A DNA stretch of 38,225 nucleotides from Acidobacteriaceae bacterium (GTDB lineage: Bacteria > Acidobacteriota > Terriglobia > Bryobacterales > Bryobacteraceae), in assembly GCA_020247055.1 (NCBI GenBank), contig JADCJL010000215.1, positions 1-38,225 on the forward strand, written 5' to 3'. Below are positions 8,076 to 28,611 of this stretch, in pieces. The translations under genes and the position numbers were made by a program. The notes below the pieces were generated by a model, which ran no database searches, had not been told where the DNA came from, and worked only from the letters and a program-made list of their open reading frames with translations. The number at the start of each line of letters is the position of its first letter. Positions within the stretch are counted from its first letter, which is position 1.

Positions 8076-11000
8076 ATGCACAGACTCTTTTTGGGCCTTG
8101 GGTTGTTCATCCCGGCTTTCGCGCAAACCAGTTCCCTGTCGGGCGTTGTCCGCGACCACCAGTCCGGCGTCGTTGCTAACGCCGTCGTCGCCCTCACCAA
8201 CAACGACACCGCCGCTCCTCGCAAAACGCTCACCACCGCTACCGGCGACTTCGTCTTTCCCTCCGTTCCGCCCGGCAACTATACCCTCGAAACCCAGATG
8301 CCCGGCTTTCGCACCGCCAGCCAGCAGATCCGCCTGCAGGTCAATGTTCCTCTGAGCGTTGCCGTCCAACTCGAGGTTGGACAGGTCACCGAAACGATCA
8401 ACGTCGTCGGAGAATCCACGACCGTCAATACCCAGAACGCTACCATCGGCAACGCCTTTACCGAAACTCAGGTCCGCCAACTCCCCCTCCTCACCCGTAA
8501 CGTCGTCGAACTCCTGAGCCTCCAACCCGGCGTCACCTCCACGGGCGAAGTCATCGGCGCCCGCCGCGACCAGAACAACATCACCCTCGATGGCGTCGAC
8601 GTCAACGACAATCAGTCCGCCGGCACAAACAGCGCCGACCGCGGCTTCTTCGCCGCGCTGCCCGTCCCCCTCGACTCCGTCCAGGAGTTCCGCGTCACCA
8701 TCGCCGGCCAGGGCGCCGACCAGGGCCGCTCCTCCGGCGGCCAAGTCTCGCTGGTTACCAAGTCCGGCTCCAACCAGTGGCACGGCTCGCTCTACGAGTT
8801 TCATCGCAACAAATCCACCGCCGCCAACGACTGGTTCTCCAACCGCTCCGGGCTCAAACGCGAAAACCTCATTCGCAATCAGTTCGGCGCCTCCTTCGGC
8901 GGTCGCATCGTGAAGGACCGCGCCTTCTTCTTCCTAAACTGGGAGGAGCGGAAAGACCGGTCCGCCTCCGCCGTCCTGCGCACCGTTCCGACCGACTCCC
9001 TCAAAGCCGGCATCGTCACCTTCCGCACCAACTCCGGCGGTATCCAGACCCTGACCCCCGCCGAAGCCCGCCAGGTCGACCCGCTTGGCGTCGGCATCTC
9101 CTCCGCCATGCTGAGCCTGCTCAAGTCCTACCCCGCGCCCAACGACCCCTCCGCCGGCGGCGACCGCGGCCTCAACTTCGGCGGCTACCGCTTTAACGCG
9201 CCCCTCACCCGCAACGACCGCGCCTATGTCGCCAAGATGGACTTCAATCTCGACCGCGAGGCCCGCCATACACTGATGCTCCGGGGCACCCTCGGCGATA
9301 ACTCCCGCGATCAGGTCCTCGCCCAGTTCCCCGGCCAGGACCCCGCCGCCCGCACGCTCGATAACTCCAAGGGGCTCTCGGCCCGCTACACGGCCGTCCT
9401 CTCCCCCAGTCTCGTCAACGTCTTCACCTTCGGCTACACCCGGCTCGGCATCGCCCAGTCCGGCAACGGCAACCCCGCCCTCGCCTTCGGTGGCATCAGC
9501 AGCGTTGAAAACTTCACCCGCGGCTTCGGCCGCTTTATCCCCACCGCCAACTTCGTTAACGACCAGACCTGGACCAAAAACAAACACACCCTCCAGTACG
9601 GCGTGAACTTCCGCTTCATTCAGAACGACCGGAACTCCTTCGCCACCTCTTTTCCCAGTTACTCCTTCAGCCGGAACACCCTGCGCGGCCTTGGCGCCGA
9701 CCTGCAGGACTCCGTCAACTCCTACATCCGCCAGCGCAGCGGCAATAGCGCCCTCGCTATCTCGGAAGCGCTCCAGGTCGTCAACGCCTACGGTACCCTG
9801 TTTGGCGTCATCAACCAGTACAGCGGAACTTACAACTTCGGCATCGACGGCCAGGCCGTGCCGCTCGGACAATCCATTGATCGCGGCTTTCGCACCCGCG
9901 AACTGGATTTCTATATCCAGGACACTTACAAAGTCCGGCGCGATCTCACCCTCACCTACGGCCTCCGTTACTCCCTCTTCACCCCTCCCTTCGAGGTCAA
10001 CGGCGTTCAGGTCGTTCCCACCGTCCCCCTGCAGAATCTGTTTGCGGACCGCGTCGGCGCCTCCGCCCTCGGCATCCCCGGCCATCTGCTGCCCACCGCC
10101 CGCGTCACCTACGCCCCCGGCGGCCCGGTCAACAAAGGACCCGGCTGGTTCGGCTACGACACCAACAACTTCGCGCCCCGCCTCAACGTCGCCTGGGCGC
10201 CCGAGTTCAACGGCGCCGCCGGCCGCCTGTTCGGCAAAGGAAGCGTCATCCGCTTCGGCGCCTCCATGCTCTATGACCGTTATGGCTCGGACATGATCGT
10301 CAACTTCGACCAATCCGGATCCCCGGGTCTGGCCAGCCAGGTCACCCAGCCCCGCAATACCAACTTCTCGGACTCGTTCCGCTACTCCGGCGGCGGACTG
10401 CCCGCTCTCCCGCCCCCGCCGGCCGCCGGTCTGCCTTTCACCCCGCCCACCATCGTCGGCGGCTTCGGCTCCTTCACCGGCGTCGCCAGCAATCTCGTCG
10501 CCCCCTATTCCATCCTCCTGAACATGACCTACGCCCGCAACCTGCCGGGTAAGATGATGATCGAGGTGGGCTACGTCGGCCGCCTCTCCCGCAAAGGTCT
10601 CGTGCAGCAGGACTTCTTCCAGCCGCTGACCGAGTTCCGGGATCCCCGCTCCGGTGCCACCTGGGCCGAAGCCTCCGGGGTCCTGCGCGACCGCTTCGAA
10701 GCCGGCCTCACCCCGGCGCAGGTGCGTGCCAACCCCGCCCTGCTCACCCCCGTACCCTTCTTTGAAAACATGTTCCCCGGCGCCGCCAACCGTACCTTTC
10801 CCGGCTCCGCCACCGCCAACTACTTCTTCACCAACTACAGCACCTACGCCGGCAGCGACCTCGACACCCTGAACGACATGGACCGCGAACGCCTCCCCAA
10901 CGGCTCCTGCATCTCCGTGTTCGGCTGCAATACCTTCTTCGCCCTGCAAAACGCCGGCCTCCGCGCCTGGGTCAACGCCGCCAACGCCAACTTCCACGGC

Positions 11001-11744
11001 GGCCAGCTCGTCTTCCGCCGTCCCGTCACCGACGGGTGGGGGTTCGACTTCAACTACACCCTCTCCCACTCGCTCGATATCGTCTCGGCCGCCGAGTCCG
11101 GCGCCGGCAACGGTGGCGCCGTCATCCAGAACTCCTTCAACCCCAAAGCCTCCTACGCCTCCTCCGACTTTGATATCCGCCACAACATCACCGCCAATAC
11201 GGTTGTCGAACTCCCCTTCGGCAAAGGCAAACCCTTCCTCCACAGCGCTCCGGGCTGGGCGAATCGCCTCCTCGCCGGCTGGCAGATCACCGCGCTCACC
11301 CGCTACCGCTCCGGTCTGCCCTTCAACATCTCCACCGGCGGCATCTACCCCACCAATTACCTGTCCAGTTCCACCGCCATCCTACGCCCCGGCGCCGCTT
11401 TCCCGGTCTCCGGACCTGGTTTTGACCAGAACGGCAACCCCAGCATCTTCCGCAATACCAACGCCGTCCAGGCTTTCATGGGTCAGTATCCCGGACGCGT
11501 CGGCACCCGCAACCTCCTGCGCGGCGCGCCCCTGTTCAATACCGACATGTCCCTTGGCAAGTACTTCCCTCTCCCCTGGGAAGGACATCGGATCCAGGTA
11601 CGCGCCGAAGCGTTCAACGCTTTCAATAACGTCAACTGGGGCGAACCCACCCGCACCTTGGCCAACCCCGGTAACTTCGGCCAGATCACTGCGACCAGTG
11701 TCGCGGCCCGCGTCCTCCAATTCGCGCTTCGTTACGAATTCTAA
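8076..11744 (+). CDS. Oar-like TonB-dependent outer-membrane receptor (module A)
   Basis: 1222 aa. A signal peptide (MHRLFLGLGLFIPAFAQ) is followed by a carboxypeptidase-regulatory-like domain (about 20-100: SGVVRDHQSGVVANAVVALT, PPGNYTLETQMPGF). A plug-like segment follows (VTETINVVGESTTVNTQ, then ITLDGVDVNDNQSAGTN), and then a very long beta-barrel ending ALRYEF with the terminal Phe used for outer-membrane assembly. This is the architecture of the Oar/CarbD_reg TonB receptors expanded in Acidobacteriota, presumed to import oligosaccharides or other large ligands. No ligand can be inferred. ATG 8076 has GGAG about 9 nt upstream. The propeller gene starts 6 nt after its stop, so it heads an operon that may run into the PSCyt genes. 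Confidence 0.93.
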   Translation: MHRLFLGLGLFIPAFAQTSSLSGVVRDHQSGVVANAVVALTNNDTAAPRKTLTTATGDFVFPSVPPGNYTLETQMPGFRTASQQIRLQVNVPLSVAVQLEVGQVTETINVVGESTTVNTQNATIGNAFTETQVRQLPLLTRNVVELLSLQPGVTSTGEVIGARRDQNNITLDGVDVNDNQSAGTNSADRGFFAALPVPLDSVQEFRVTIAGQGADQGRSSGGQVSLVTKSGSNQWHGSLYEFHRNKSTAANDWFSNRSGLKRENLIRNQFGASFGGRIVKDRAFFFLNWEERKDRSASAVLRTVPTDSLKAGIVTFRTNSGGIQTLTPAEARQVDPLGVGISSAMLSLLKSYPAPNDPSAGGDRGLNFGGYRFNAPLTRNDRAYVAKMDFNLDREARHTLMLRGTLGDNSRDQVLAQFPGQDPAARTLDNSKGLSARYTAVLSPSLVNVFTFGYTRLGIAQSGNGNPALAFGGISSVENFTRGFGRFIPTANFVNDQTWTKNKHTLQYGVNFRFIQNDRNSFATSFPSYSFSRNTLRGLGADLQDSVNSYIRQRSGNSALAISEALQVVNAYGTLFGVINQYSGTYNFGIDGQAVPLGQSIDRGFRTRELDFYIQDTYKVRRDLTLTYGLRYSLFTPPFEVNGVQVVPTVPLQNLFADRVGASALGIPGHLLPTARVTYAPGGPVNKGPGWFGYDTNNFAPRLNVAWAPEFNGAAGRLFGKGSVIRFGASMLYDRYGSDMIVNFDQSGSPGLASQVTQPRNTNFSDSFRYSGGGLPALPPPPAAGLPFTPPTIVGGFGSFTGVASNLVAPYSILLNMTYARNLPGKMMIEVGYVGRLSRKGLVQQDFFQPLTEFRDPRSGATWAEASGVLRDRFEAGLTPAQVRANPALLTPVPFFENMFPGAANRTFPGSATANYFFTNYSTYAGSDLDTLNDMDRERLPNGSCISVFGCNTFFALQNAGLRAWVNAANANFHGGQLVFRRPVTDGWGFDFNYTLSHSLDIVSAAESGAGNGGAVIQNSFNPKASYASSDFDIRHNITANTVVELPFGKGKPFLHSAPGWANRLLAGWQITALTRYRSGLPFNISTGGIYPTNYLSSSTAILRPGAAFPVSGPGFDQNGNPSIFRNTNAVQAFMGQYPGRVGTRNLLRGAPLFNTDMSLGKYFPLPWEGHRIQVRAEAFNAFNNVNWGEPTRTLANPGNFGQITATSVAARVLQFALRYEF

Positions 11745-11750
11745 TCAACC

Positions 11751-12758
11751 ATGAAACCAGTTGCTTCTCTCCTCCTCTGCGCCGCGACTCTCCTCGAGGC
11801 GGAACCGCAGAAACCCGGCAAGAAAGGGGCCCCGCCCCCGGCCCCCGTCGCCGGCATCAAGACCCCGGGTATTCAACTGCCCTTCGCCAATCTTCCGGCC
11901 GAAGCGGAAATCCCCGTCCCTGGCCGCCCCAACGCCATCCACTTCGGCGAAATGGCCTTCCTCCCCAACGGACCCGAAAACGCCGTCACCCGCCTCGATA
12001 CCAAGACCAATAAGCTCAACGATCCCTGGACGGGTCTCAAAAACCCCTGTGGCGGCATCCTGAACGCTTTCCGCTCCCTTTGGATCCCTACCTGCGGCGA
12101 CCAGTCCCTCGCTCGCCTCGACCTCCGCTCCGGCAAACCTACCGCCACGGTCGCCATTGGCCCCGTCTCCGCCCATCGCGCCGTTGCCGCCAACCCCGAT
12201 AGCGTCTGGGTCCTCTCCGACAACAAAACTACCCTCTCCCGCATCGATCCCGAACAAAACGCGATCGTCAGCGAACTTCGCCTTCCCGCCAACTGCCATT
12301 CGCTCCAGTTCGCCGAATCCGCCCTTTGGGTCACCTGCCCCGGCGAGGACCGCTTGCTTCGCATCGATCCGAAAACCAACCTCGTCACGCAGCGCATCGA
12401 AATCTCCGAACCCGTGGCCCAAACCTTCGGCGAAGGCTCTCTCTGGGTCCTCTCGCGCAAGGAGGGCAAGGTGCACCGCATCGATCCCAAGACGAACAAG
12501 ATCAGCGCCACCATCGAAACCGGGATCCCCAACGCCGCCGGTTCCCTCGTCTTCGGCGAAGGCTCCCTCTGGCTCTCGGCCCCCGGCTTCCCGATCACCC
12601 GCATCAACCCGGCCACCGATAAAGTATCCCGTCAGTTTGCCGGCGCCGGCCACGGCGATCTGTTCACCGGAGCCTCCGCCCTCTGGCTTTATGACGAAAA
12701 CAAAAAAATGCTAAAACGTTTTGACCCGAAGCGGATTGCCGCCACCCTCCCCGAGTAA
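11751..12758 (+). CDS. Secreted Vgb/NHL-type beta-propeller protein
   Basis: 335 aa with a signal peptide (MKPVASLLLCAATLLEA) followed by a Lys/Pro-rich stretch. At least five blade repeats follow, built on motifs such as VTRLDTKTNKL, LLRIDPKTNLV, VHRIDPKTNKI and FGEGSLWVLS/FGEGSLWLSA. This pattern is shared by virginiamycin B lyase-like and YVTN/NHL propellers. Whether it is catalytic or only a binding scaffold cannot be told; the Vgb active-site residues were not identified. It follows the receptor by 6 nt and so is probably co-expressed, acting in the periplasm or on the surface with the receptor's ligand. Confidence 0.8.
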   Translation: MKPVASLLLCAATLLEAEPQKPGKKGAPPPAPVAGIKTPGIQLPFANLPAEAEIPVPGRPNAIHFGEMAFLPNGPENAVTRLDTKTNKLNDPWTGLKNPCGGILNAFRSLWIPTCGDQSLARLDLRSGKPTATVAIGPVSAHRAVAANPDSVWVLSDNKTTLSRIDPEQNAIVSELRLPANCHSLQFAESALWVTCPGEDRLLRIDPKTNLVTQRIEISEPVAQTFGEGSLWVLSRKEGKVHRIDPKTNKISATIETGIPNAAGSLVFGEGSLWLSAPGFPITRINPATDKVSRQFAGAGHGDLFTGASALWLYDENKKMLKRFDPKRIAATLPE

Positions 12759-12766
12759 CCTATAAT
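12736..12766 (+). promoter_or_regulatory. Possible promoter with perfect TATAAT before the PSCyt1 gene
   Basis: TATAAT at 12761-12766 is consensus. The best -35, TTGCCG (12736-12741), lies 19 nt away, which is long. It overlaps the end of the propeller gene and could give the PSCyt1-DUF1501 pair independent expression. Confidence 0.4.
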
Positions 12767-12790
12767 GGTGTTGGCCACGTCGTATCGCTA

Positions 12791-12802
12791 GGCTCTGTAG
12801 CC
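12791..12802 (+). promoter_or_regulatory. Small inverted repeat GGCT-CTGT-AGCC in leader
   Basis: A 4-bp inverted repeat 25 nt downstream of the TATAAT. It shares its outer TAGGCT/AGCC half-sites with the repeat at 7976-7988 in the receptor leader. It is short enough to be chance. Confidence 0.25.
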
Positions 12803-12854
12803 ACTCTTCGGGTTCCCTGTCTACCCTTCCGATTCTGCATTACCCCAGGATTCC

Positions 12855-15800
12855 ATGCGCTACAGTCTGGTTCTCTTTCTTTCTTTGGCCGGCTTCTCTG
12901 CCTCCGCGCAGAGCCCGAACTCCCCGGAGTTCTTCGAAAACAAGGTCCGCCCGCTGCTGGCGAAAAATTGCTATGCCTGTCATACCCAGTCCGCCCTCGG
13001 CGGCCTGCGGCTCGACAGCGGCGAAGCTCTCGCCAAAGGCGGCAAGCGAGGCCCCGCCGTCAACTCCGCCGACCCCGAAAAGAGCCCCCTGCTCATCGCC
13101 GTTCGCCATGCCGACCCCAGCTACAAGATGCCGATGGGCAACAAGCTGAAGGACGAAGAAATCCAGGTGTTCGAATCCTGGGTCAGGGCGGGAGCCAAAT
13201 GGCCGGTTGGCGCCAAGCTCCAGGAAGACACGAAGGCCGCCGGCAATGGCAAGTACGTCATTCGCCCGGAAGCCCGCCAGTTCTGGTCGCTGCAACCCCT
13301 GCGCGAACCCGCTATCCCAGCCGCAAAATGGGGCCAGACGCCCATCGACCGCTTTGTCGCCGCTCGCCTCGAAAAGGAGGGCCTGAAGCCGGTTCGCCCG
13401 GCCTCGAAACGCGATCTTCTCCGTCGCGCCACGCTCGACCTCACCGGCCTCCCCCCTACTTATGACGAAATCCAGGCCTTTGAGAAAGACACCTCGCCCA
13501 ACGCCTTCGCCAAGGTGGTTGACCGTCTCCTCGCCTCCCCGCACTACGGCGAACGCTGGGGCCGCTTCTGGCTCGACGTCGCCCGCTACGGCGAAGATGA
13601 CTATCGCAGTCTTGACCCGATGCGCCGCGGCCACAACCCTTACCCCAATGCCTTTAACTACCGCGATTGGGTGATCCAGGCCTTCCAGGACGACATGCCG
13701 TATGACCACTTCGTCAAGGCCCAGCTGGCCGGCGATTTACTCGACCCCAAATCCCGCCACAAAACCCTCCCCGGCACCGGTTTCCTCGGCCTTGGCCCCT
13801 GGTACTACGACAACGGCTCGACCGAAGTCACCCGCGCCGACGAGCGCCACGACCGCGTCGACGTCATCAGCCGCGGCTTCCTTGGCCTGACCGTCGGTTG
13901 CGCTCGCTGCCACGATCACAAGTACGACCCCATCCCCGCCACGGATTACTACGCCCTTGCCGGCGTCTTCTACAACACCATCTACGAAGAGCATCCCCTC
14001 GTCCCCAAAACCACCCTCGCCGAGTTCGAAAAAATCGAAGAGCACATCGACCTCAAACAGAAGATGCTCGCTGAAATCCAGCAGAACGTGGGTGCTAACC
14101 TGTCGAAGGCGCTCGCCCTCGAGACCGCCAACTACCTCCAGGGCGTCTGGGAGGTCAGCGGACCCCAAAAGAAAGAGAAGGCAACCGTCGTCGACGCCCG
14201 GCGCCTCGACTACGAAGTTCTCGACCGGTGGATCGCCTACATGGAGAAGTCCACCGACAAGTACAAGAACAAAGAGGCCTGGCAGGCGATGATGAAGAGG
14301 AAGGGTAGCACCGCCGCCGAAGCCAAGCGCCTGGCCGAAAAGTTCCAGGAAGGGGTCGTCGCCGTCATGCTCGCCCGCTACGATCTCGACGAGCAGAATA
14401 AGGTCATCCAGGCCAAAGCCATCGAAGGGACGAAAAAGAAGAAGCGGACCAACAAACCGAGTAACTTCGTCACCAACGACGACTTCTGCCCCGGCTGTAA
14501 CCTCACCCTGCTGCAGATGCCGGAAGCCGACACCGCCTTCTGGACCGAAATCTTCCAGCGCATGCTCAGTGATAGCGACGACCCCAACGCCATGATGGCC
14601 GCCGGCAATCGCTTCGGCAAGCCCGGCGTGCTCACTTTCCGCGGCTGGGGCCTCGAATCCCGCTCCGGCTCCGAGACCCAGGCGCAGATCGCCGCCATCC
14701 GCAAGGACATCGACGAAGCCCGCAAGAAACTGGAACCCGGCTTCCCCTACCTCCACGGCGTCAAGGACGCCCCCGAGGCCCGCAACATCCAGCTCGCCTT
14801 CCGCGGTGACCCGTTCGACCTGAAGCAGGAGGTGCCTCGCCACTTCTTGAGCATTCTCAGCCCCTCCGACCCCGCGCCTTTTTCGAAGGGCAGCGGCCGG
14901 CTCGAACTCGCCGAACAGATCGTCAAGCAGCCCATCGCCATGCGCGTCTTCGTCAACCGCATCTGGAAGGGCCACTTCGGTACCGGCATCGTCGATTCGC
15001 CCAGCAACTTCGGCATGACCGGCGAACGCCCCACCAACCCCGAGTTACTCGAATACCTGGCTTCTAACTTTGCCAAGAACGGCATGTCCGTCAAGAAACT
15101 CCACCGCGACATCATGCTCAGCGCTGTCTACCAGCTATCGACCGAGAATGATCCCGTCGCCCTTGCCAAAGACTCCGGCAACCGCCTCTACTGGCGCGCC
15201 GACAAAAAACGCCTGGACGCCGAACAGATCCGTGACTCGGTCCTCCAGGTCTCCGGCAAGCTTGATAAAGCCGTCGGCGGCCCGTCGGTCGAACTCACCC
15301 CGGCCGTCAACCGCCGCACCGTCTACGGCAAGGTCAGCCGCTACAAGCTCGACGAGTATCTCTCGCTGTTTGACTTCCCCACGCCGCTGATCAGCGCCGA
15401 AAAACGCTTCGTCACCACCGTGCCCACCCAACGCCTCTTCCTCATGAACAGCGACTTCATGCAGGTGCAGGCCGAAGCCCTCGTGGAACGCGTGGCCGCC
15501 GAACCGAACAATACGGCCCGCATCAGGAAGCTCTATCAGATAGTCTACGGCCGCGAAGCCACCCCGGAGGAGATCAGCCTCGGCCTTGAATACCTCAAGA
15601 CCGAACCGCTGCTCGAATACGAGGAAGGTAAAAAGAAGCCTGCCGCCGATTCTCCCCGCGGTCCCGGCCGCGCCCGCCGCCCCGAAGCCGTTTCCGCTGC
15701 CAGCAAACCCGCTCCTGACGAAGCCGACAAGCCCGTTCCCGATAAGGGCCTTGCCGAGGAAACCGCCCCGGCCGCTGCCGCTGCGGCGCCAGAAGCCGCT

Positions 15801-15956
15801 CCCCCGGCCGACGCCTTCGGCATGGGCATGATGGGCGGCATGGGCCGCCGCGGACCCGGCGGCGCTACCCCGCCAGCCGTGAAGTACGAACCGACCGTCT
15901 GGGGACGCTACGCCAAAGTCCTGCTCAGCGCCAGTGAATTCCTGTTCATCAACTAA
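12855..15956 (+). CDS. PSCyt1-PSCyt2(DUF1549)-PSD1(DUF1553) cytochrome-like protein (module A)
   Basis: 1033 aa, secreted (MRYSLVLFLSLAGFSASAQ). The PSCyt1 domain carries heme-type CYACH (Cys39, Cys42, His43). The DUF1549 region (about 150-370) includes IDRFVAARLEKEGL, RRATLDLTGLPPTYDEI and a second CxxCH, CARCH (349-353). A middle region holds an unusual CPGC pair (545, 548), and the C-terminal DUF1553 includes MRVFVNRIWKGHFGTGIV and PTQRLFLMNSDFM. The final strand of DUF1553 is split by an insertion of about 85 residues (roughly 925-1008) rich in Ala/Pro/Lys and then Gly/Met (FGMGMMGGMGRRGPGG). The family is assumed to be a periplasmic redox or substrate-handling protein; function is unproven. 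AGGA lies 5 nt before the ATG. The DUF1501 gene follows after 14 nt. Confidence 0.92.
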   Translation: MRYSLVLFLSLAGFSASAQSPNSPEFFENKVRPLLAKNCYACHTQSALGGLRLDSGEALAKGGKRGPAVNSADPEKSPLLIAVRHADPSYKMPMGNKLKDEEIQVFESWVRAGAKWPVGAKLQEDTKAAGNGKYVIRPEARQFWSLQPLREPAIPAAKWGQTPIDRFVAARLEKEGLKPVRPASKRDLLRRATLDLTGLPPTYDEIQAFEKDTSPNAFAKVVDRLLASPHYGERWGRFWLDVARYGEDDYRSLDPMRRGHNPYPNAFNYRDWVIQAFQDDMPYDHFVKAQLAGDLLDPKSRHKTLPGTGFLGLGPWYYDNGSTEVTRADERHDRVDVISRGFLGLTVGCARCHDHKYDPIPATDYYALAGVFYNTIYEEHPLVPKTTLAEFEKIEEHIDLKQKMLAEIQQNVGANLSKALALETANYLQGVWEVSGPQKKEKATVVDARRLDYEVLDRWIAYMEKSTDKYKNKEAWQAMMKRKGSTAAEAKRLAEKFQEGVVAVMLARYDLDEQNKVIQAKAIEGTKKKKRTNKPSNFVTNDDFCPGCNLTLLQMPEADTAFWTEIFQRMLSDSDDPNAMMAAGNRFGKPGVLTFRGWGLESRSGSETQAQIAAIRKDIDEARKKLEPGFPYLHGVKDAPEARNIQLAFRGDPFDLKQEVPRHFLSILSPSDPAPFSKGSGRLELAEQIVKQPIAMRVFVNRIWKGHFGTGIVDSPSNFGMTGERPTNPELLEYLASNFAKNGMSVKKLHRDIMLSAVYQLSTENDPVALAKDSGNRLYWRADKKRLDAEQIRDSVLQVSGKLDKAVGGPSVELTPAVNRRTVYGKVSRYKLDEYLSLFDFPTPLISAEKRFVTTVPTQRLFLMNSDFMQVQAEALVERVAAEPNNTARIRKLYQIVYGREATPEEISLGLEYLKTEPLLEYEEGKKKPAADSPRGPGRARRPEAVSAASKPAPDEADKPVPDKGLAEETAPAAAAAAPEAAPPADAFGMGMMGGMGRRGPGGATPPAVKYEPTVWGRYAKVLLSASEFLFIN

Positions 15957-15970
15957 CTAGGGAGAACCAC

Positions 15971-19198: not shown

Positions 19199-19207
19199 TG
19201 GTAGTCT
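19199..19207 (+). promoter_or_regulatory. Extended -10 promoter TGG-TAGTCT for receptor B
   Basis: TAGTCT (19202-19207) preceded by a TGn extension. The -35 at 17 nt (TTAGGT) is poor, as is common with extended -10 promoters. The leader would begin near 19214. Confidence 0.4.
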
Positions 19208-19212
19208 GATCA

Positions 19213-19241
19213 AACCGGGGGGCATAGTACCCCCGCTGGTT
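19213..19241 (+). promoter_or_regulatory. Leader hairpin AACC-GGGGG ... CCCCC-GCT-GGTT
   Basis: AACC and a G-run at 19213-19222 can pair with CCCCC and GGTT at 19230-19241 around the loop CATAGTA, with a GCT bulge. It lies at the very start of the proposed transcript, ahead of the weak TTG start. It may protect the mRNA or control translation. Confidence 0.4.
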
Positions 19242-19253
19242 ACTTACCTAGAC

Positions 19254-19257
19254 AGGA
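19254..19257 (+). promoter_or_regulatory. Ribosome site (AGGA) deciding a TTG start
   Basis: AGGA followed by 8 nt and TTG at 19266. The residues after the TTG form a clean signal peptide, while the reading frame upstream of it runs back through the DUF1080 gene. Confidence 0.6.
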
Positions 19258-19265
19258 ATACTGCA

Positions 19266-22200: not shown

Positions 22201-22649
22201 CCGTCAACAGCTACAACTCGGGTGGCCGTCTCTTTCCGACCACCTCCAATGCGCTGCCCTTCTTCAACCTTGGCCTGCGGCCCAACATCGTAAACGCGAA
22301 CATGCGGTCCGATGTCTCGATGGATCAGTACGACCCGAACGATCCGGCCCGCAACACCTACATCCTGCGCTCAGCCTTTGCCAACCCGGCGCCCGGACAG
22401 TTGAGCACCGCGGCTCGCGGTCTCGAAGTCCGCGGCCCGATGCGGCAGGATGAGAGCCTCGCCTTCATGAAGCAGAACCGGATCGGCGAGCGCCTCTCGA
22501 CGCAATTCCGCGTCGAGATTCAGAACCCCCTCAACCGGACCGTCTTTGGCAATCCGATCATGGATTTCACCAACGCCGCCTTCGGTCGCATCAACTCTAC
22601 CCAGATCGGTCCGCGTAACATCCAACTCGGTCTCAAGTTGATGTTCTGA
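19266..22649 (+). CDS. Oar-like TonB-dependent outer-membrane receptor (module B, TTG start)
   Basis: 1127 aa. From TTG 19266 the protein begins with a signal peptide (MRSLLLRSFCILFFTSAALLAQG). A carboxypeptidase-regulatory-like domain follows (GAITGLITDKSGAAVPNVAV, YDVSAKASGF), then a plug-like segment (GAVTESVTVQGGVPIIQTES, IYYDGIALSRGDLSNDAE) and a long barrel ending LGLKLMF. There is no ATG until far inside the mature protein, so TTG is the only start that gives export. The frame's extension back to 19038 overlaps DUF1080 and is not credible. Same class as the receptor at 8076 but clearly divergent in sequence, so probably a different ligand. A strong terminator follows, so the gene may be monocistronic. 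Confidence 0.92.
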   Translation: MRSLLLRSFCILFFTSAALLAQGDRGAITGLITDKSGAAVPNVAVEAVNTATNTRFETVSTGTGAYRLVGLPIGFYDVSAKASGFNTSIQRGVQIQTNQTATIDIGLTVGAVTESVTVQGGVPIIQTESADIGVVVESKQFLDLPLTLGGGIRNPSNFIKLAPGVSPTGTWTKSISGGGGFQDQIYYDGIALSRGDLSNDAEVNPSVDAIAEFKLITNNYSAEYAHAMGGVTSFTMKSGTNQFHGTAFEFLRNEKLDARGFFPTTRAPSKQNEWGGTLGGPVVIPKIYNGKDRTFWFFSFDQFYRRGGALGGLNTLPTSRMVQGDFSELGSRLIYDPNSSGAAGSRVPFAGNRIPSNRLSKVSSVMLPFIPAPELPGLVNNSIAPLGSPRADERTAGFKIDHTFSPKNRVSGMYNDTFRPSIKSPGPSRLLPVGGEAATLILNYNLQKVRTNVLHLNIDQNLSPTTLNHIGLGYSRFRNPNFSLGFNQGWTQPNGGKLGLRGLQFDLSPTVLFDTEGYTRFGDDIASDNYFHTFTALDTLTMIRGNHTLKFGGEVQRHRDNYRNFGNGGGTFRYRRETTGLPGVAASGDAFASFLLGETYSSSAFFRDSLPGGRYTVFGFFADDTWKVTNKLTLTLGFRWEPVVPHSDPAGRISYLDIAAPNALAGNLPGAMRFGNTDGVSNRYLNVLWNNFAPRLGIAYRLTNRTVIRGGAGVFNSNYINQGLGLPAFGYATTASFASADGGTTAAFNWDGGFPQNFRRPPVKDATAANGQAATAVIPSSYQLPYKLQWNLAIEHQFADDISMSFAYVANAGRHLYNSQQLNQLPQQYWNLPASLLTANINSDAARAAGIREPFPGFAQLWGGLARVNQALRPFPQYANVGIYGSTFGNSNYHSFQYKLDKRMARGLSGTVAYTWSKFLTDAAMFDDNPAQQNALQREKSYHPSDYPHVFTFSLVYNVPFSSQSKAVNFLLKGWQLATVNSYNSGGRLFPTTSNALPFFNLGLRPNIVNANMRSDVSMDQYDPNDPARNTYILRSAFANPAPGQLSTAARGLEVRGPMRQDESLAFMKQNRIGERLSTQFRVEIQNPLNRTVFGNPIMDFTNAAFGRINSTQIGPRNIQLGLKLMF

Positions 22650-22669
22650 TCGCCCGCTGGCTTCCTGCC

Positions 22670-22715
22670 GCCGAAAGCCTCCCCCCTACCGGGCCGGGAG
22701 GCTTTCGGCTTTTCT
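22670..22715 (+). terminator. Rho-independent terminator after receptor B
   Basis: A perfect 14-bp stem, GCCGAAAGCCTCCC (22670-22683) with GGGAGGCTTTCGGC (22696-22709), a 12-nt loop, then TTTTCT. It lies 20 nt after the receptor stop and separates it from the PSCyt2 operon. Confidence 0.9.
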
Positions 22716-22731
22716 GGGTTGGCCTTTCCCG

Positions 22732-22769
22732 GTCGGCCCCCCCGTGTCGGCCCCCCTGTCGGCCCCCCC
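22732..22769 (+). repeat. Three tandem copies of GTCGGCCCCCC
   Basis: Copies begin at 22732, 22746 and 22758, separated by 1-2 nt, each GTCGG plus six or seven C. They lie between the terminator and the next promoter. It is a simple tandem repeat liable to slippage, not a CRISPR. Confidence 0.7.
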
Positions 22770-22798
22770 TTTACCCCGGAGTTCAATTCTGATATTTT
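22770..22798 (+). promoter_or_regulatory. Sigma70-type promoter for the PSCyt2-DUF1501-SUMF1 operon
   Basis: TTTACC (22770-22775) and TATTTT (22793-22798) with exactly 17 nt between. The -35 begins right where the GTCGGCCCCCC repeats end. Confidence 0.5.
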
Positions 22799-22805
22799 CT
22801 CCGCT

Positions 22806-22810
22806 GGAGG
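22806..22810 (+). promoter_or_regulatory. Shine-Dalgarno GGAGG deciding a GTG start
   Basis: GGAGG, 6-nt spacer, GTG at 22817. It is the strongest ribosome site in module B and fixes the start of the PSCyt2 gene. Confidence 0.75.
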
Positions 22811-22816
22811 TGTTGT

Positions 22817-24589
22817 GTGAAGACTCTGTGGTTTCTGCCTGTCCTTCTCCCGGTGTCCCTTTTGCTTGGCCAGACCCCGGCAGCATCCGACGCTCACGCA
22901 CCGCTGTTCCGTCCGAAGGCTAACACCGTAAGTCAGGATAGCGCCCGCCTCACTGCCCACCTGCCCAAACCGGCGGCCGGCCGGGTGGCCATCAAAGGCT
23001 TCATCGATGAAGAGATCCTCGGCAAGATGAAGCGGGATCAGATCCCCCACGCTCCGCTGGCAACCGATCTCGAGTTCCTCCGTCGCGTTCGCCTCGACCT
23101 GACCGGTAAAATTCCCACCGCGACCGAAGTGCGCGAGTTTCTCTCGAACCGCGCTCCAGATAAGCGCGCCCGCCTAATCGATCAGCTAATCGGTTCTCCC
23201 GAGTTTGTTGATAAATGGGCCTACTTCTTCATGGATGTCCTCCGCGCCAACGGCAAAATGGGCCGCGGACACAAACTCTTCCACTACGCCCTTAAAGAGA
23301 GCCTCGCCGCCGACCGGCCCTATGACGACTGGGTCCGTTCGCTCATCGCTGCTTCGGCCAAGAGTAATTATGTCGTTTCGGCGGTCAATCCCATCGTCCG
23401 CGAACACGTCGAAGGCAAACCCGGCGAAGCCGCCCACGGCGACGATCTGTCCAAGGTCAACCAACTCGACACCCACGACGAGCTGACGATTCTCTACGGC
23501 AAGGTCTTCCTCGGTATCAACCTTTCCTGTGTCTCCTGCCACAACGGACGCGGACATCTGGAGAAGGTGAACGCGCATCTGACTACGCTCCGCCGGTCGG
23601 ACTTCTTCCAGATGTCCGCCTTCCTGGGCGGCACCCGCTACATTCCGCACGTCGAAAAATCGGCCGCCGTCATGGGCCACTTCCTTGTCGATGACTTCGG
23701 CGGGCCCTACAACACCAAGTCCGAAAGTATGCTCCGCACCAAACGTTCGGGCGGCCCCAACACCCCGAAGTTTGTCCTCACCAACGCCGTCGTCCCGCCC
23801 GAAGCCGAGCCCCGCGCTGAACTGGGCCGCATGCTCACCAGCCATCCGCAGTTCGCCCGCGCCACCGTGAATATGTTCTGGGCCAAGCTGATGGGCATTG
23901 GCATAGTCGATCCCTACGACGAATTCGACCTGCTCCGCCTCGACCCCAACAACCTGCCCAAAGGCTGGGACCTGCAGCCTTCGCACCCGGCCCTGCTCGA
24001 GAAGCTAGCCGACTCCTTCCGCCAGAGCAATCACAGCATCCAAAGCCTGTTCCGGCTCATCTGCAACTCCTCGGCCTACCAGCTGTCCGCCCGCTTCCCG
24101 GGCGAATGGCAGGAGTCCTACGCCCGCTACTACGCCCGCAAGTACGTCCGCATGCTGACGGCTGAAGAGCTGCACGACGCCATCGCCGATGCCACCACGC
24201 GCCCCGGTTCCTACGTCGCCATGCAGGTCTCGGTGCCGCAGGCCAAGGGCGAGCTGAAGTCCTTCATGTCGGCCTTTGGCGAATCCAACCGCGGCGGCCC
24301 GCCCCGCACCCCGGCCCCGTCGCCGCTGCAGCCCATCACGATGATGCGTTCCCCCGTTGTGAACGATCGCGTCCTGGCCGCCAAGGATAGCCGCGTGCAG
24401 CGTCTACTCGACACCTATCCGGACAACGGTAAAGTCGTCGACGAGCTTTTCCTCGCCACCATTTCCCGTCTACCGCTGCCGGCCGAACGGGCCGTCGCGG
24501 TGGACGCGCTCAAGGCCAATCGCGTCGAAGGCGCCCAGAACCTGCAGTGGGCTCTTCTCAACCTCGTCGAGTTCCTCTATAACTTATGA
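22817..24589 (+). CDS. PSCyt2(DUF1549)-PSD1(DUF1553) protein (module B)
   Basis: 590 aa, secreted (MKTLWFLPVLLPVSLLLGQ). It begins DUF1549 at about residue 60 (FIDEEILGKMKRDQI, FLRRVRLDLTGKIPTATEV) and carries a single heme-type CVSCH (238-242) where the module A homologue has CARCH. The N-terminal PSCyt1 domain with CYACH is absent. DUF1553 follows (QFARATVNMFWAKLMGIGIV, SIQSLFRLICNSSAYQLS) and ends in VEFLYNL. It is a little over half the length of the module A protein and lacks its insertions, so it looks like the minimal form of the family. The stop overlaps the DUF1501 start by 4 nt (ATGA), so the pair is coupled. Function is unproven; periplasmic redox or sugar handling is the working guess. 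Confidence 0.9.
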   Translation: MKTLWFLPVLLPVSLLLGQTPAASDAHAPLFRPKANTVSQDSARLTAHLPKPAAGRVAIKGFIDEEILGKMKRDQIPHAPLATDLEFLRRVRLDLTGKIPTATEVREFLSNRAPDKRARLIDQLIGSPEFVDKWAYFFMDVLRANGKMGRGHKLFHYALKESLAADRPYDDWVRSLIAASAKSNYVVSAVNPIVREHVEGKPGEAAHGDDLSKVNQLDTHDELTILYGKVFLGINLSCVSCHNGRGHLEKVNAHLTTLRRSDFFQMSAFLGGTRYIPHVEKSAAVMGHFLVDDFGGPYNTKSESMLRTKRSGGPNTPKFVLTNAVVPPEAEPRAELGRMLTSHPQFARATVNMFWAKLMGIGIVDPYDEFDLLRLDPNNLPKGWDLQPSHPALLEKLADSFRQSNHSIQSLFRLICNSSAYQLSARFPGEWQESYARYYARKYVRMLTAEELHDAIADATTRPGSYVAMQVSVPQAKGELKSFMSAFGESNRGGPPRTPAPSPLQPITMMRSPVVNDRVLAAKDSRVQRLLDTYPDNGKVVDELFLATISRLPLPAERAVAVDALKANRVEGAQNLQWALLNLVEFLYNL

Positions 24590-25971
24590 AGATCCAGGAC
24601 CTGCTCCCCTCTCGCCGCGAACTCCTGCGCTTCGGCGGTCTCGGCATCCTCGGCGCCTCGGCCATCCCCCGCGTGCTGCGCGCCAACTCCACGGCGAAGA
24701 CCAAGCCCCGCGGCACCGCCCGCAACGTCATCTTCTTTGAACTCGCCGGTGCCCTCAGCCACGTCGATTCGTTCGACTTCAAAGAGAATCCGTCCACCCT
24801 CCCCGGCTTCGACGTCCGCAAGGCCTCGAATGGCATCTACGTCCCCTACGGCCTGTTCCCGCGCATGTTCCATGTGATGGACAAGGTGGCCCACGTCCGC
24901 TCCTTCGTCAGCCACGAAGAGGTACACCTGCGCGGCCAGTACTACATCCAGGCCGGTCGCCAGCTCAACGTCGCCTTCGCCCCGGAGATCCCGTCGATCG
25001 GCTCGGTCGTCGCCAGCGAACTCGAGCCGCAGCGGCGTCCGAACGACACCTTCCCCACCTACGTCTCCTTCAACCTGACCACGAATCAGGTCGGGGCTCT
25101 TTCCACCGGCTTCCTGCCGCCGCGCCACGCCGTCTTTGACCTCAACCCGGAAGAAGCCCTCTCCGGCATGCGCCTCGACCAGAAGGCCACCGAACTGCTC
25201 GAAGAGCGCTGGCGGCTGCTCTCGAAACTCCGCCAGGCGCAGGGCCAGCGTCAGGCCGGCCTCGACAAGTCCATCAACGGCTTTGAAGACTTCTCCCAAA
25301 CCGCCAAGCACCTGCTCTCCGACGGCCGCTGGCCCAAGGCGTTTGATATTCCGGAGGCCGACCGCAAGCGCTACGGCAACACCTCCGTGGGGCTGTCTGC
25401 CATCCTCACCCGGAACCTGCTCCAGCAGGACGGCGGCACCCGCTACATCCACATCTGCCATGACGGCTGGGACCACCACAAAGAGATCTGGACCAAAACG
25501 GCCGCAACCAATCACTACAAGCTGATCGCGGAGATGGATCCGGCCCTCGCCAGTCTGATTGAGGATCTCGCCGTCGCCAAGTCCCCCGTGCATCCCGGCA
25601 AAACCCTGCTCGACGATACGCTCGTTGTCTGCATGGGCGAGTTCGGCCGCACCCCGGGGCCGCTCAACTTCCAGCATGGCCGCGACCACCACAAACACTG
25701 CTTCCCGGCGATGTTCGCCGGCGCCGGCGTCAAGGGCGGCCGCGTCCTCGGCGCGAGCGACGCCGATGGCGTCAAGTGCATCGACACCGGCTGGGAGCAC
25801 TCCATGCAGCCCCGGATTGAAAACGTTGTGGCGACGATCTATTCCGCCCTCGGCATCGATTGGTCGAAGGAGGTCCACCACACCACCTCCGGCCGCGCCT
25901 ACGTCTACGTCGATCCGCTCGGCGCCAACTCGCTGATTCCGACCGACGAACTCAAAAACATCTATGCCTAG
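24586..25971 (+). CDS. DUF1501 protein with Tat signal (module B)
   Basis: 461 aa. The N-terminus LLPSRRELLRFGGLGILGASA is a clear twin-arginine signal. NVIFFELAGALSHVDSFDFKE, DTLVVCMGEFGRTPG and GRDHHKHCFPAMFAGAGVKGG are the DUF1501 family blocks. The HICHDGWDHH segment is rich in histidine and aspartate and may bind metal, as expected for a relative of the alkaline phosphatase clan. No CxPxR sulfatase motif is present. It overlaps the PSCyt2 gene by 4 nt and the SUMF1 gene by 8 nt, making a tightly coupled three-gene block. The charged insertion of the module A homologue is absent. Confidence 0.92.
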   Translation: MKIQDLLPSRRELLRFGGLGILGASAIPRVLRANSTAKTKPRGTARNVIFFELAGALSHVDSFDFKENPSTLPGFDVRKASNGIYVPYGLFPRMFHVMDKVAHVRSFVSHEEVHLRGQYYIQAGRQLNVAFAPEIPSIGSVVASELEPQRRPNDTFPTYVSFNLTTNQVGALSTGFLPPRHAVFDLNPEEALSGMRLDQKATELLEERWRLLSKLRQAQGQRQAGLDKSINGFEDFSQTAKHLLSDGRWPKAFDIPEADRKRYGNTSVGLSAILTRNLLQQDGGTRYIHICHDGWDHHKEIWTKTAATNHYKLIAEMDPALASLIEDLAVAKSPVHPGKTLLDDTLVVCMGEFGRTPGPLNFQHGRDHHKHCFPAMFAGAGVKGGRVLGASDADGVKCIDTGWEHSMQPRIENVVATIYSALGIDWSKEVHHTTSGRAYVYVDPLGANSLIPTDELKNIYA

Positions 25972-26704
25972 CTGGTGGGTCGCCCTCTATCTGCTGGCCG
26001 GCCCCGAAATGGTCTCCATTCCCGCCGGCGAGTTCGAACAGGGCCGCAGCTTTGCCTGGAAGGATTACGATGTACCCTGGTACCCCAATCCGGCCAAGGA
26101 CGATACCCCGGCCCGCCGCGTCAAACTGAAGGCCTATTCGCTGGATGTCGCCGAGGTAACCAACCAGCGCTACCACGCCTTCGTGAAAGCCACCCGCCAC
26201 GCCCCCCCCTACCATTGGAAGAAGGGCGTCCCGGACCCCGCCAAGCTCAATCATCCCGTCTACAACGTCAGCTACGACGATGCAGTGGCCTTCTGCGCCT
26301 GGGACGGCGGCAAGCGCCTGCCTACCGAAGCCGAATGGGAGCGCGCCGCCCGCGGCGCCGCCGAAGGCAAAATGTACCCCTGGGGCGACCGCGCCATCAC
26401 CCCGGCCGATGCCGTCTACGACGCCAAGGACGGCCCGCAGGCCGTATGCGGCAAGACGCGCAACGCCTTTGGCCTGTGCGACATGACCGGTAATGTCTGG
26501 GAGTGGTGCGCCGACTGGTACGGCCAGCGTTACTACGCCTCAGCGCCCGCCGAAAATCCCCCCGGCCCGCCCACGGGCATCTACCGCGTCCTGCGGGGCG
26601 GCAGCTGGTTCGATACGCCTCCGCTGTTCCTCTCGCTCCCCTACCGCAGTTGGGCCCGGCCCGCCGAGCGCAGCCCCACCATCGGCTTCCGCTGCGCGAA
26701 GTAA
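25964..26704 (+). CDS. SUMF1/FGE-like protein lacking the catalytic cysteines
   Basis: 246 aa, a single SUMF1 (formylglycine-generating enzyme-type) domain: MVSIPAGEFEQGR, LDVAEVTNQRYHAFV, KRLPTEAEWERAARG, GLCDMTGNVWEWCADWYG and RVLRGGSWFDTPPLF ending GFRCAK. In true FGE the RGGS block is followed by two cysteines five residues apart; here those places are Asp217 and Phe222. Sulfatase activation by the FGE mechanism is therefore unlikely, and a structural or binding role is more plausible. The first residues (MPSWWVALYLLAG) are a very short hydrophobic stretch that may or may not be a signal. It overlaps the DUF1501 gene by 8 nt. That the two proteins interact is inference from this coupling. 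Confidence 0.85.
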   Translation: MPSWWVALYLLAGPEMVSIPAGEFEQGRSFAWKDYDVPWYPNPAKDDTPARRVKLKAYSLDVAEVTNQRYHAFVKATRHAPPYHWKKGVPDPAKLNHPVYNVSYDDAVAFCAWDGGKRLPTEAEWERAARGAAEGKMYPWGDRAITPADAVYDAKDGPQAVCGKTRNAFGLCDMTGNVWEWCADWYGQRYYASAPAENPPGPPTGIYRVLRGGSWFDTPPLFLSLPYRSWARPAERSPTIGFRCAK

Positions 26705-26713
26705 CCCTCCTGT

Positions 26714-27574
26714 ATGCGACTGCTTCTTCTTTTCTGTCTCGTCTTCCCCTGCCTGGCGGAGGAGTGGCGACCGGTCCGCGGCAGCATCCTCGGCGGCCTC
26801 TCCGGCCTGGCACTCGTCGAAAGCACGGCCGCCCGGAGCACGTTCCTGATCGTGCATGACAACAAGGCGCCCACCGACCCGCGCCTCGCTCTGATCACCC
26901 TCGCCGGCCCGCAGCCGGTCGCCTACCGCCCGGTCGCCTGGAAGTTCGACGCCGACTGCATCGACCTGGAGGCCATCACCGCCATCCCTGGCCGCCCCGG
27001 CGAGTATCTCGCCCTCATCAGTCGCGGCCTGGTTTATCACATCCGCCTCGACGCCGCCCGGCAGTCGGCGGAAACCCTCGGCCGTTTCCCCCTGCCCGCC
27101 GTACCACCCAAGGCCAATTTCGAAGCGCTTTCGCTCCAGCGCCTCGACCATCGCTACCTGCTGGCCTGGGCCGACCGCGGCGATAGCGACCGCCCGGCCC
27201 GCCTCTTTTTCGCCGAACTGGGTCTGGACGGCTACCGGCTATCCGGCCTCGAGTCGGCGGACATTCGGGTTCCCTGGCCGGTGCAGAATGTGCGCCACGT
27301 CTCGGATCTCCGCATCGATGAAGGCGGCGTCCTCACTTTCGCCGCCGCCTCCGACACGGGCGACGACGGCCCGTTTTCTTCGGCCATCTATCTCGGCGGC
27401 GTCTTCCGCTTCGGGAAGAAGAAGCCCCGTCTGGCGGCCTATGCGCAACTGATCCGCCTGCGGACGTTCCCGGATCGTAAAATAGAGGGGATGGAGCTCG
27501 TCCCGGGCAGCGGAGGTTTCCTCTTCGCCACCGATGACGAGAACTTCGGCGGATGGGTACTCTCCACCTGGTAA
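26714..27574 (+). CDS. Secreted phytase/esterase-like beta-propeller protein
   Basis: 286 aa with signal peptide MRLLLLFCLVFPCLAEE. GLSGLALVESTAARSTFLIVHDN, CIDLEAITAIPGRPGEYLALIS, FEALSLQRLDHRYLLAWADRG and IEGMELVPGSGGFLFATDDENFGG resemble the SdiA-regulated / 'esterase-like activity of phytase' propellers. This is a fold-level recognition and enzyme activity is not shown. Its acidic loops (DCIDLEAI, DTGDDGPF, DDENFGG) would suit calcium binding. It lies 9 nt after the SUMF1 stop and overlaps the next gene by 22 nt, so it belongs to the module B operon. ATG 26714 has no clear ribosome site and may depend on coupling. Confidence 0.6.
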   Translation: MRLLLLFCLVFPCLAEEWRPVRGSILGGLSGLALVESTAARSTFLIVHDNKAPTDPRLALITLAGPQPVAYRPVAWKFDADCIDLEAITAIPGRPGEYLALISRGLVYHIRLDAARQSAETLGRFPLPAVPPKANFEALSLQRLDHRYLLAWADRGDSDRPARLFFAELGLDGYRLSGLESADIRVPWPVQNVRHVSDLRIDEGGVLTFAAASDTGDDGPFSSAIYLGGVFRFGKKKPRLAAYAQLIRLRTFPDRKIEGMELVPGSGGFLFATDDENFGGWVLSTW

Positions 27575-28611
27575 CGCTGCTGTGGGCGCAGGCCTTGTTG
27601 CCTGCCAGTTGGGCCTCTGCGTTCGAACGGACCGATGCCGGTGTCCTCGCCTGCGACGTCACCCCGACGCGGCCCTATCTGAACTTTGGCTTCCGCTTTC
27701 AGGCCGGCTACTTCTTCACGGTCCCGCTGGCACAGCTGGCCGGTCCCGGCCATCAGCTCCAGGTCGTCACCCGCGTAACCCCCGAGGCCGGACCGGCCGT
27801 CGTCCTCGGCCAACGCTTCGGTCTGCCGCCGGTACCCAAAACTTCGCAGTTGATCGAGGTGGCGGGTGGCTATCTGTTGGGGGAAGGGAAGTACCGCGTC
27901 GACTGGATCCTTTACGATGAACGCAACCGTGCCTGCCGGAAGTCCTGGAAGCTCAAAGTGGCGCGCTCGGGAGGCGAAAAGCGGGTCGACCTGGCGATGC
28001 CGCCCCATACCGTCACCGACTTCTCGCTCACCGGTCTGCCCCCGCCGCGCCTCGCCGCCAAAGCCGGAGGCCCCATCGCGATCCTGCTCAACGCCGCGCC
28101 CCTGTCGCTGCGCCGGCTGCGGCTTCGCGTTTCCGATGAGCTTCTGCTGGTTGGCGCCCTCTCTTCGCTCGTCGAACGCCTGGGTGGCCGTCCGATTCGG
28201 CTCGTTGTTTTCAATCTCGACAAGAGGCAGCAGCTCTACGAAAAGGACGATTTTGAGCCCGCGCAACTGAACGCGGTCAGCCAGGCCATCAACCAGCTCG
28301 AACTCGACGCGGTCGACCTCGCGGTGCTCCAAAGCCCCAAGGGCCACATCGACTTTCTCGCCGGTCTACTCAATCGCGAGACCGCGGAAACGGTCGTCCT
28401 GCTCGGGCCCACCACCCGCTACTTCGAATCGATGCCCGCCCATAAGATCGAAAAGGGAAGAAACCGGATCTTCAATCTCCAGTTCCTTCCCTTCTGGCGC
28501 TTGGGCGTGCCGCCGCCCGATCTGCTCGACTCCGCTACCCGCCGGCGCAAGGGCAAAACCATGCTCCTGCGGACCCCGGCCGACTTCGCCAAGGCCATCG
28601 CGGCGCTTTAA
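27553..28611 (+). CDS. Acidobacterial-type conserved hypothetical, probably secreted
   Basis: 352 aa, starting inside the previous gene (22-nt overlap) with a hydrophobic leader (MGTLHLVTLLWAQALLPASWASA). The following DVTPTRPYLNFGFRFQAGYFFTVPLAQL and LQVVTRVTPEAGPAVVL recall a family of long secreted proteins of unknown function common in Acidobacteriota; this is memory, with no named domain. The middle contains YRVDWILYDERNRACRKSWKLKV, a beta-sandwich-like segment. The C-terminal half (LLNAAPLSLRRLRLRVSDELLLVGALSSLVE) is helical. Its stop codon is directly followed, with no gap, by the stop of the opposing subunit-3 gene. Last gene of the module B operon. Confidence 0.6.
   Translation: MGTLHLVTLLWAQALLPASWASAFERTDAGVLACDVTPTRPYLNFGFRFQAGYFFTVPLAQLAGPGHQLQVVTRVTPEAGPAVVLGQRFGLPPVPKTSQLIEVAGGYLLGEGKYRVDWILYDERNRACRKSWKLKVARSGGEKRVDLAMPPHTVTDFSLTGLPPPRLAAKAGGPIAILLNAAPLSLRRLRLRVSDELLLVGALSSLVERLGGRPIRLVVFNLDKRQQLYEKDDFEPAQLNAVSQAINQLELDAVDLAVLQSPKGHIDFLAGLLNRETAETVVLLGPTTRYFESMPAHKIEKGRNRIFNLQFLPFWRLGVPPPDLLDSATRRRKGKTMLLRTPADFAKAIAAL

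Follow-up and report, generated by a model that had tools for sequence, protein, structure and literature searches.

The stretch of DNA considered here, referred to as the window, is contig JADCJL010000215.1 (38,225 nucleotides) of an Acidobacteriaceae bacterium whose genome is 6.56 Mb in 358 contigs. The genes in question lie at 8076-28611, all on the + strand and spaced no more than 167 bases apart. In this run the initial annotation saw an outer-membrane receptor, a PSCyt2-PSD1 protein and a DUF1501 protein twice in tandem, forming two parallel modules. A Pfam scan confirms the genes and the named families, and a codon-model gene caller reproduces the receptor starts at 8076 and 19266. However, the order is not exactly as described, as in module 1 (8076-17497) a propeller gene lies between the receptor and the PSD1 gene, and the PSD1 protein also contains a PSCyt1 domain.

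Module 1 starts with REC1 (8076-11744), an outer-membrane beta-barrel receptor of the Oar/TonB-dependent-like kind with an N-terminal carboxypeptidase-regulatory domain (PF25183 OMP_b-brl_4, E 7e-138; PF13620 CarboxypepD_reg). It is followed by BP1 (11751-12758), a beta-propeller-like protein of 335 aa with weak YVTN/YncE-like matches in Pfam, PDB sequences and NCBIfam, and with a leader that by eye looks exported. The next gene encodes PSD1a (12855-15956), a PSCyt1-PSCyt2-PSD1 protein by Pfam with CxxCH haem-c motifs at 39 and 349, and the last one DUF1501a (15971-17497; PF07394, E 9e-137). The N-terminal leaders of DUF1501a and of the second DUF1501 protein both look twin-arginine by eye, in agreement with the Tat (twin-arginine translocation) signal first proposed. 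Near the C-terminus of PSD1a, at about residues 985-1000, an 18-row alignment contains a Met-rich low-complexity stretch (GMGMMGGM-like, with variants), a possible metal site. Both receptors of the run match the outer-membrane beta-barrel family PF25183, and REC2 also matches PF00593. In both pairs, a single protein combines PSCyt2, PSD1 and at least one haem-c motif, and DUF1501 is directly downstream on the same strand. Neither a SusD-like protein nor a glycoside hydrolase is found among the 26 window proteins scanned with Pfam.

The neighbourhood of PSD1a was compared in 20 loci from genomes of the same family and in the best 80 of 560 confirmed named loci; together with the window, removal of redundancy reduced the set from 101 to 90 (eleven dropped). 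Among these listed loci, the closest named relative is 'Bryobacteraceae bacterium CoA2 C42' (L166), with a PSD1a that is 95% identical, which makes an origin of the window in the Bryobacteraceae (Acidobacteriota) very probable. There are 28 non-redundant loci with a PSD1a of at least 60% identity and at least three genes readable on each side. DUF1501a is found within three genes in all 28, BP1 in 22 and REC1 (at least 45% identity) in 19. The receptor is always on the same strand as PSD1a, at position -2, -1, +2 or +3. When the PSD1a relatives are only 50-60% identical, BP1 is still beside 10 of the 12, while below 50% it is found beside 1 of 32. Other, more distant receptors are present near some of the loci with PSD1a relatives below 60%.

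The REC1 tree contains 46 proteins, of which 33 are linked to PSD1a, 10 are unlinked and 3 are indeterminate. In a fully supported clade of 34 rows, 30 are linked, 2 are not and 2 are indeterminate, and if the 11 named-genome rows that were fetched via PSD1a are taken out, the counts are 19, 2 and 2 of 23. The linkage label changes 5 times on the tree, compared with 9.1 times when shuffled, and 0 to 1 of 500 shuffles are as low. The side of REC1 relative to PSD1a changes at least three times, i.e. the link has been maintained through rearrangement, which argues for function over inertia. The pairwise distances of REC1 and PSD1a are also correlated (r 0.72, n=26), and those of BP1 and PSD1a even more so (0.88, n=19); none of 2000 permutations was as high in either case. 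Two genomes, G004 and G078, have two cassettes each, and here the REC1 and PSD1 proteins pair by cassette type and not by genome. The distances between genomes are 0.08-0.09 for REC1 and 0.09-0.10 for PSD1a, as opposed to 0.65-0.69 and 0.72-0.74 within a genome. The matching receptor and PSD1 trees that had been foreseen are therefore found for the REC1 clade and the PSD1a clade, with shared descent still contained in the signal.

Co-occurrence was examined in 121 genomes of one family, Bryobacteraceae as judged by the named members. PSD1a (at least 60% identity) is present in 29 genomes, REC1 (at least 50%) in 29 and both in 28, and BP1 (all 34 at E <=1e-50) is found in all 29 PSD1a genomes. 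These counts come from at most 6 / 5 scored candidates per genome, so that a genome marked as absent may be a miss. The 60% and 50% thresholds were set after inspecting the lists, and places and genomes were compiled by hand from the listings. The genes for receptor, propeller, PSCyt/PSD1 and DUF1501 thus tend to remain linked as a set and to be found together in different genera of the family.

In six non-redundant loci (L149, L150, L155, L159, L267 and L273), REC1 stands head-to-head with genes for a sodium:solute symporter and another propeller, and in five of them, all except L267, PSD1a is beside REC1. A seventh symporter (L184) is three genes from PSD1a, at a locus without REC1. PF00474 was found in each of the three symporters, of the six, that were scanned with Pfam. 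The type appears to be SSF, from the NCBIfam superfamily sss, proline and pantothenate models, every score being under the model cut-off. A symporter adjoining REC1 offers a possible route from the outer to the inner membrane; no SSF symporter was found near the cassette in the window.

Paired PSD1 and DUF1501 genes are abundant in this genome. Pfam-type matches number 78 for PSD1, 74 for PSCyt2 and 77 for DUF1501, some being pieces of one gene and two of the DUF1501 matches being below the cut-off. Further loci with two PSD1/DUF1501 pairs inside 20 kb exist in the same genome, and with tens of such matches two pairs close together are not rare per se. We examined the genes around the PSD1 matches and around those DUF1501 matches that exceed the cut-off (L001-L075), together with 20 control contig starts. 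Receptors were found with a profile built from the two window receptors, which divergent receptors may escape; in the genome as a whole there are 160 receptor candidates at first look, 65 of which were scored. The neighbourhoods contain 66 pairs of adjacent PSD1 and DUF1501 genes on the same strand. Of the 55 that are readable here, one (1/55), the second pair of the window, is directly preceded by a receptor on its own strand, compared with 5/269 for other gene pairs of the same loci and 0/99 on the control contigs. At the end of one contig (L028) a receptor precedes a PSD1 gene whose DUF1501 neighbour is unreadable. Among the 32 pairs whose flanks are complete, 10 have a receptor within three genes on either strand, versus 11/121 and 5/55 in the controls (Fisher p 0.003 and 0.016; all Fisher values given here are computed without regard to the relatedness of genomes). 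This indicates a mild enrichment of receptors nearby, yet no receptor-first rule. The proposed adjacency of receptors to the pairs accordingly holds for REC1 with PSD1a, but genome-wide not for the immediately upstream gene.

Other genes also recur near the pairs. A GMC oxidoreductase and a Gluconate_2-dh3 protein, which we take to be of the kinds called LacA and LacC, are encoded near PSD1-DUF1501 pairs in the window (28612-31030), in L027, where they are directly upstream, and in L006. A family of large proteins of this genome (L053, L054 and relatives) adjoins five PSD1-DUF1501 pairs on the same strand, and the two members that were scanned both contain a PPC domain.

Downstream of module 1 follow a Gfo/Idh/MocA oxidoreductase (17534-18577), a DUF1080 / 3-keto-disaccharide hydrolase family protein (18584-19165; PF06439, E 9e-43) and the second outer-membrane receptor, REC2 (19266-22649), with PF25183 at E 8e-182 (scanned from 19038) and CarboxypepD_reg. 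The first two were initially taken as tail genes that set the chemistry of module 1. However, among the 20 and 80 relative loci, several of which end earlier, Gfo follows DUF1501a directly only in L166, as in the window, and in L146 and L147 two opposite-strand genes separate them. A role of these tail genes in the chemistry of module 1 is therefore not supported, and Gfo/Idh-DUF1080 is a separate unit, a genus-level neighbour of module 1. REC2 adjoins Gfo-DUF1080 in the window, G004, G078 and L166, and elsewhere the listed REC2 relatives (at least 47% identity) are on contigs other than those of the listed Gfo or PSD1b relatives. Inside the genus, REC2 is syntenic with Gfo-DUF1080 and not with PSD1b.

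The second pair consists of PSD1b (22817-24589), a short PSCyt2-PSD1 protein with one CxxCH and no PSCyt1 (Pfam), and DUF1501b (24586-25971; Pfam, E 4e-57), which overlaps PSD1b by four bases and has the motif SRRELLRFG in its leader. It is followed by a protein of the SUMF1/FGE (formylglycine-generating enzyme) fold (25964-26704; Pfam FGE/SUMF1). In 20 family relatives (L126-L145), picked from the top of a list of 27 genomes at 55% identity or more, no receptor is directly upstream of PSD1b (0/20), while the SUMF1-fold gene comes after DUF1501b in 17 of 19 readable relatives. PSD1b, DUF1501b and the SUMF1-fold protein are a conserved three-gene unit of their own. In L132 and L134 a receptor lies immediately 3' of the SUMF1-fold gene. 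Aligned to the FGE chains 6muj and 2q17, the SUMF1-fold protein is without the paired catalytic cysteines. The first cysteine is missing, and no cysteine comes after the GGSW motif, in all 18 proteins compared (window and 17 relatives). Two further genes complete the run. H286 (26714-27574), first called a phytase-like propeller, has a weak phytase-like similarity with a Pfam match below the cut-off (E 0.0068), and H352 (27553-28611) has no Pfam match at E 0.001 but matches in 117 of the 121 family genomes (E <=1e-10, many at about 30% identity). In two contigs of the same genus (L126 at 5501-9285, L127 at 1172-4956), a divergent pair belonging to the other planctomycete type lies in the vicinity of PSD1b; the pair of L126 was scanned and consists of a PSCyt3/PSD2-5 protein and DUF1552.

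Between REC2 and PSD1b there is a synteny breakpoint (22648-22764). By blastn, similarity to the REC1-to-REC2 block ends at 22647 (L146) and similarity to the PSD1b block starts at 22765 (L126) or 22766 (L127), leaving 117 bases between the blocks. In both G004 and G078 the two blocks are on separate contigs (L126 and L127 versus L146 and L147). The interval contains a hairpin at 22670-22709 followed by TTTT; the segment 22660-22725 folds at -37.4 kcal/mol (z -3.4), and none of 200 shuffles is as good. A simple terminator scan does not list this hairpin because of its narrow loop rule, and gives no terminator excess in the region (18 against 17.6 expected). At 22730-22770 there are C-rich repeats (TCGGCCCCCC-like), and 1.26 Mb from elsewhere in this genome did not contain the doubled C-rich pattern. 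Module 2 as originally drawn is a composite, in which rearrangement or assembly has put the REC2-Gfo/Idh-DUF1080 block upstream of the PSD1b unit. The two modules are thus not equivalent: module 1 is a conserved cassette, whereas module 2 crosses a synteny break and a hairpin and is, by gene order, mostly a chance neighbour.

In the 121 genomes (PSD1b at least 55% identity, REC2 at least 47%, Gfo at least 71%), PSD1b and REC2 co-occur 11 times versus 3.3 expected (p 8e-6). The corresponding numbers are 17 versus 6.9 for PSD1b and Gfo and 11 versus 3.8 for REC2 and Gfo. As all three families co-occur alike, lineage may explain the excess of PSD1b with REC2. Between the set of REC1, BP1 and PSD1a and that of PSD1b and REC2, no significant excess was found (p 0.15 to 0.66).

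Some hints about the chemistry come from the protein families. The PSCyt1 part of PSD1a matches cytochrome c (Pfam), and with the PSD1a profile the PDB gives a single match under E 0.01, FoxE, an iron-oxidising cytochrome, which aligns to the PSCyt1 part (E 1.7e-5). The predicted model of PSD1a is helical (pTM 0.70). For the DUF1501 profile, LtaS or sulfatases make up seven of the eight PDB matches with E no higher than 5, all of them sub-threshold (E 0.12-2.2), and Pfam Sulfatase matches at E 0.029. D80, H151, D365, H367, E407, D428, H429 and D468 are at least 90% conserved in 71 DUF1501 paralogues, His151 being kept in 70 of them; DUF1501b retains the His, but its residue 160 is Ala and its residue 468 Asn. 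Residues 151-161 of DUF1501a (H151-x8-T160-G161) resemble the sulfatase signature, and in an alignment made by eye we take His151 to stand at the position of the Cys/Ser nucleophile. A sulfatase-superfamily-like enzyme with a His at the nucleophile place is a lead from these comparisons, not a result.

We suggest, with little more than even confidence, that module 1 is a cassette dedicated to the uptake and processing of a single ligand. REC1 would carry the ligand across the outer membrane, and the propeller would bind it in the periplasm. PSD1a, with its two haem motifs, could then oxidise (or reduce) the ligand and hand electrons to a periplasmic cytochrome c. The Tat-exported DUF1501, perhaps with an alkaline-phosphatase/sulfatase-like fold and an altered nucleophile site, might cleave or modify the ligand, and the product would enter via the SSF-type symporter where one is present. 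Uptake followed by periplasmic processing of one ligand was the function proposed for both modules; it fits module 1 but neither module 2, by its gene order (0/20), nor the pairs in general (1/55). A broader and rather speculative view, which we think is probably not correct, is that the PSCyt/PSD1-DUF1501 pairs, about 70 copies here, are a general periplasmic processing engine. In such an engine the substrate would be set by the partners (receptor clade, propellers and, in some genera, the SSF symporter), and DUF1501 would belong to the sulfatase superfamily, have an unusual His in place of the nucleophile and work coupled to a redox partner that carries two haem motifs.

Several observations weigh against a dedicated cassette. 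REC1 (at least 45%) is beside none of the 12 PSD1a relatives at 50-60% identity and none of the 32 below 50%. With no place beside these distant relatives the receptor is outside the old core, and since BP1 is kept at 50-60% identity but REC1 is missing, the propeller looks like the older partner of PSD1a and the receptor like the later one. In the sister REC1 clade of 12 rows, only 3 are linked, 8 are unlinked and 1 is indeterminate. There is no REC1 within 6 kb at 9 of 31 PSD1a places and no PSD1a (at least 60%) within 6 kb at 18 of 40 REC1 places, some of these being contig ends. Most of the linked loci were retrieved via PSD1a, which biases toward the link. The tree agreement and the co-occurrence, assessed without a species tree, in part reflect shared descent. 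No plug-domain model reached E 0.001 in the Pfam scan of REC1 and REC2, and when the PSD1a model was compared by fold, the matches were chiefly helix pairs, which are uninformative.

The link between receptor and pair could be passive, i.e. inherited gene order in a receptor-rich genome with no shared function. Receptors are indeed plentiful (160 first-look candidates, 65 scored) and are no commoner immediately upstream of the pairs (1/55) than in the controls (5/269, 0/99). Module 2 shows that such an adjacency can arise without conservation, and the 8 unlinked rows of the 12 in the sister clade point the same way. However, the main REC1 clade retains the link although REC1 has switched sides at least three times, and REC1 copies without the link are nearly confined to genomes that also have PSD1a (28/29), so we consider a passive link unlikely. 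More improbable in our view is a cassette for a metal or a metal complex, in which the receptor would import the complex, the haem protein would change its redox state for release and the Met-rich stretch of PSD1a would bind the metal. This stretch, present in the 18-row alignment, and FoxE, the sole protein in the PDB that the PSD1a profile matches below E 0.01, speak for it, as does the fact that TonB-dependent receptors commonly carry metal chelates. Yet the FoxE match may reflect merely a generic cytochrome c fold, and the linked symporter, SSF-type with model scores below cut-offs, points to an organic solute.

For the arrangement as a whole, the single strand, the spacing of no more than 167 bases and the co-occurrence of the PSD1b, REC2 and Gfo families above expectation could suggest that all of 8076-28611, with its two receptors and two pairs, functions as a single system. 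We find this very improbable given the breakpoint with its hairpin at 22648-22764, the location of the two halves on different contigs in G004 and G078, and the absence of a significant co-occurrence excess between the REC1, BP1 and PSD1a families on the one hand and PSD1b and REC2 on the other (p 0.15 to 0.66). An assembly chimera of the metagenome-assembled genome, and not a real rearrangement, is a serious possibility for the side-by-side placement, although we put it below even. One block gives way abruptly to the other, and the sequence where they meet is of C-rich low complexity; the join is absent in G004 and G078, the L166 contig ends at REC2, and no relative examined shows it. On the other hand, both sides are similarly diverged from their relatives (80-87% DNA identity) and so plausibly come from the same species. 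Module 2 is thus a warning that receptor adjacency alone misleads in receptor-rich genomes. With the dedicated cassette as the favoured explanation of module 1, a PSD1 subfamily tied by descent to a receptor, propellers and a symporter poses a defined substrate question, and the REC1 ligand may reveal the role of the pair. This matters as PSCyt/PSD1 and DUF1501 are unexplained families that occur in tens of copies both here and in Planctomycetes.

Parts of the run resemble known systems. The protein at 25964-26704 belongs to the same sequence family as the formylglycine-generating enzymes (SUMF1), but the paired catalytic cysteines are missing. As in the 3-keto-glycoside pathway (LacABC and DUF1080), in the part of PMC9007349 consulted, the window has a DUF1080 protein (18584-19165) and a GMC and Gluconate_2-dh3 pair (28612-31030). 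Unlike in that pathway, DUF1080 and the GMC pair are in different synteny blocks here, and no LacB-like cytochrome is found among the Pfam-scanned neighbours. With the TonB-dependent carbohydrate utilisation (CUT) loci, as presented in the accessible portion of PMC5615132, which also treats the PSCyt domain groups, module 1 has in common an outer-membrane receptor, periplasmic proteins and sometimes an inner-membrane transporter. In contrast to those loci, no glycoside hydrolase was found in module 1 by the Pfam scan, and the processing part is PSCyt/PSD1 and DUF1501.

The closest parallel is the 'DUF1501 genetic module' of PSCyt/PSD1-DUF1501 pairs in Planctomycetes and Verrucomicrobia (Kamneva et al. 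2012, as cited in sections of PMC4960237 and PMC4452313). R. baltica has 41 copies each of PSD1 and PSCyt2 according to an excerpt of PMC2754498, and in Planctomycetes DUF1501 adjoins WD40 genes according to an excerpt of PMC5587647, in line with the propeller link of module 1. The titles and abstract openings listed in searches on these families, with subscription journals mostly uncovered, contain no mention of a co-inherited receptor-propeller-PSD1-DUF1501 set. The pairs of Planctomycetes and Verrucomicrobia share with ours the paired domains, the haem-c motifs, the export signals and the many copies per genome. As far as these partial sources go, the partners described for them are carbohydrate-binding domains and sulfatase or WD40 neighbours, while here the partners are a co-inherited receptor, a propeller and an SSF symporter.

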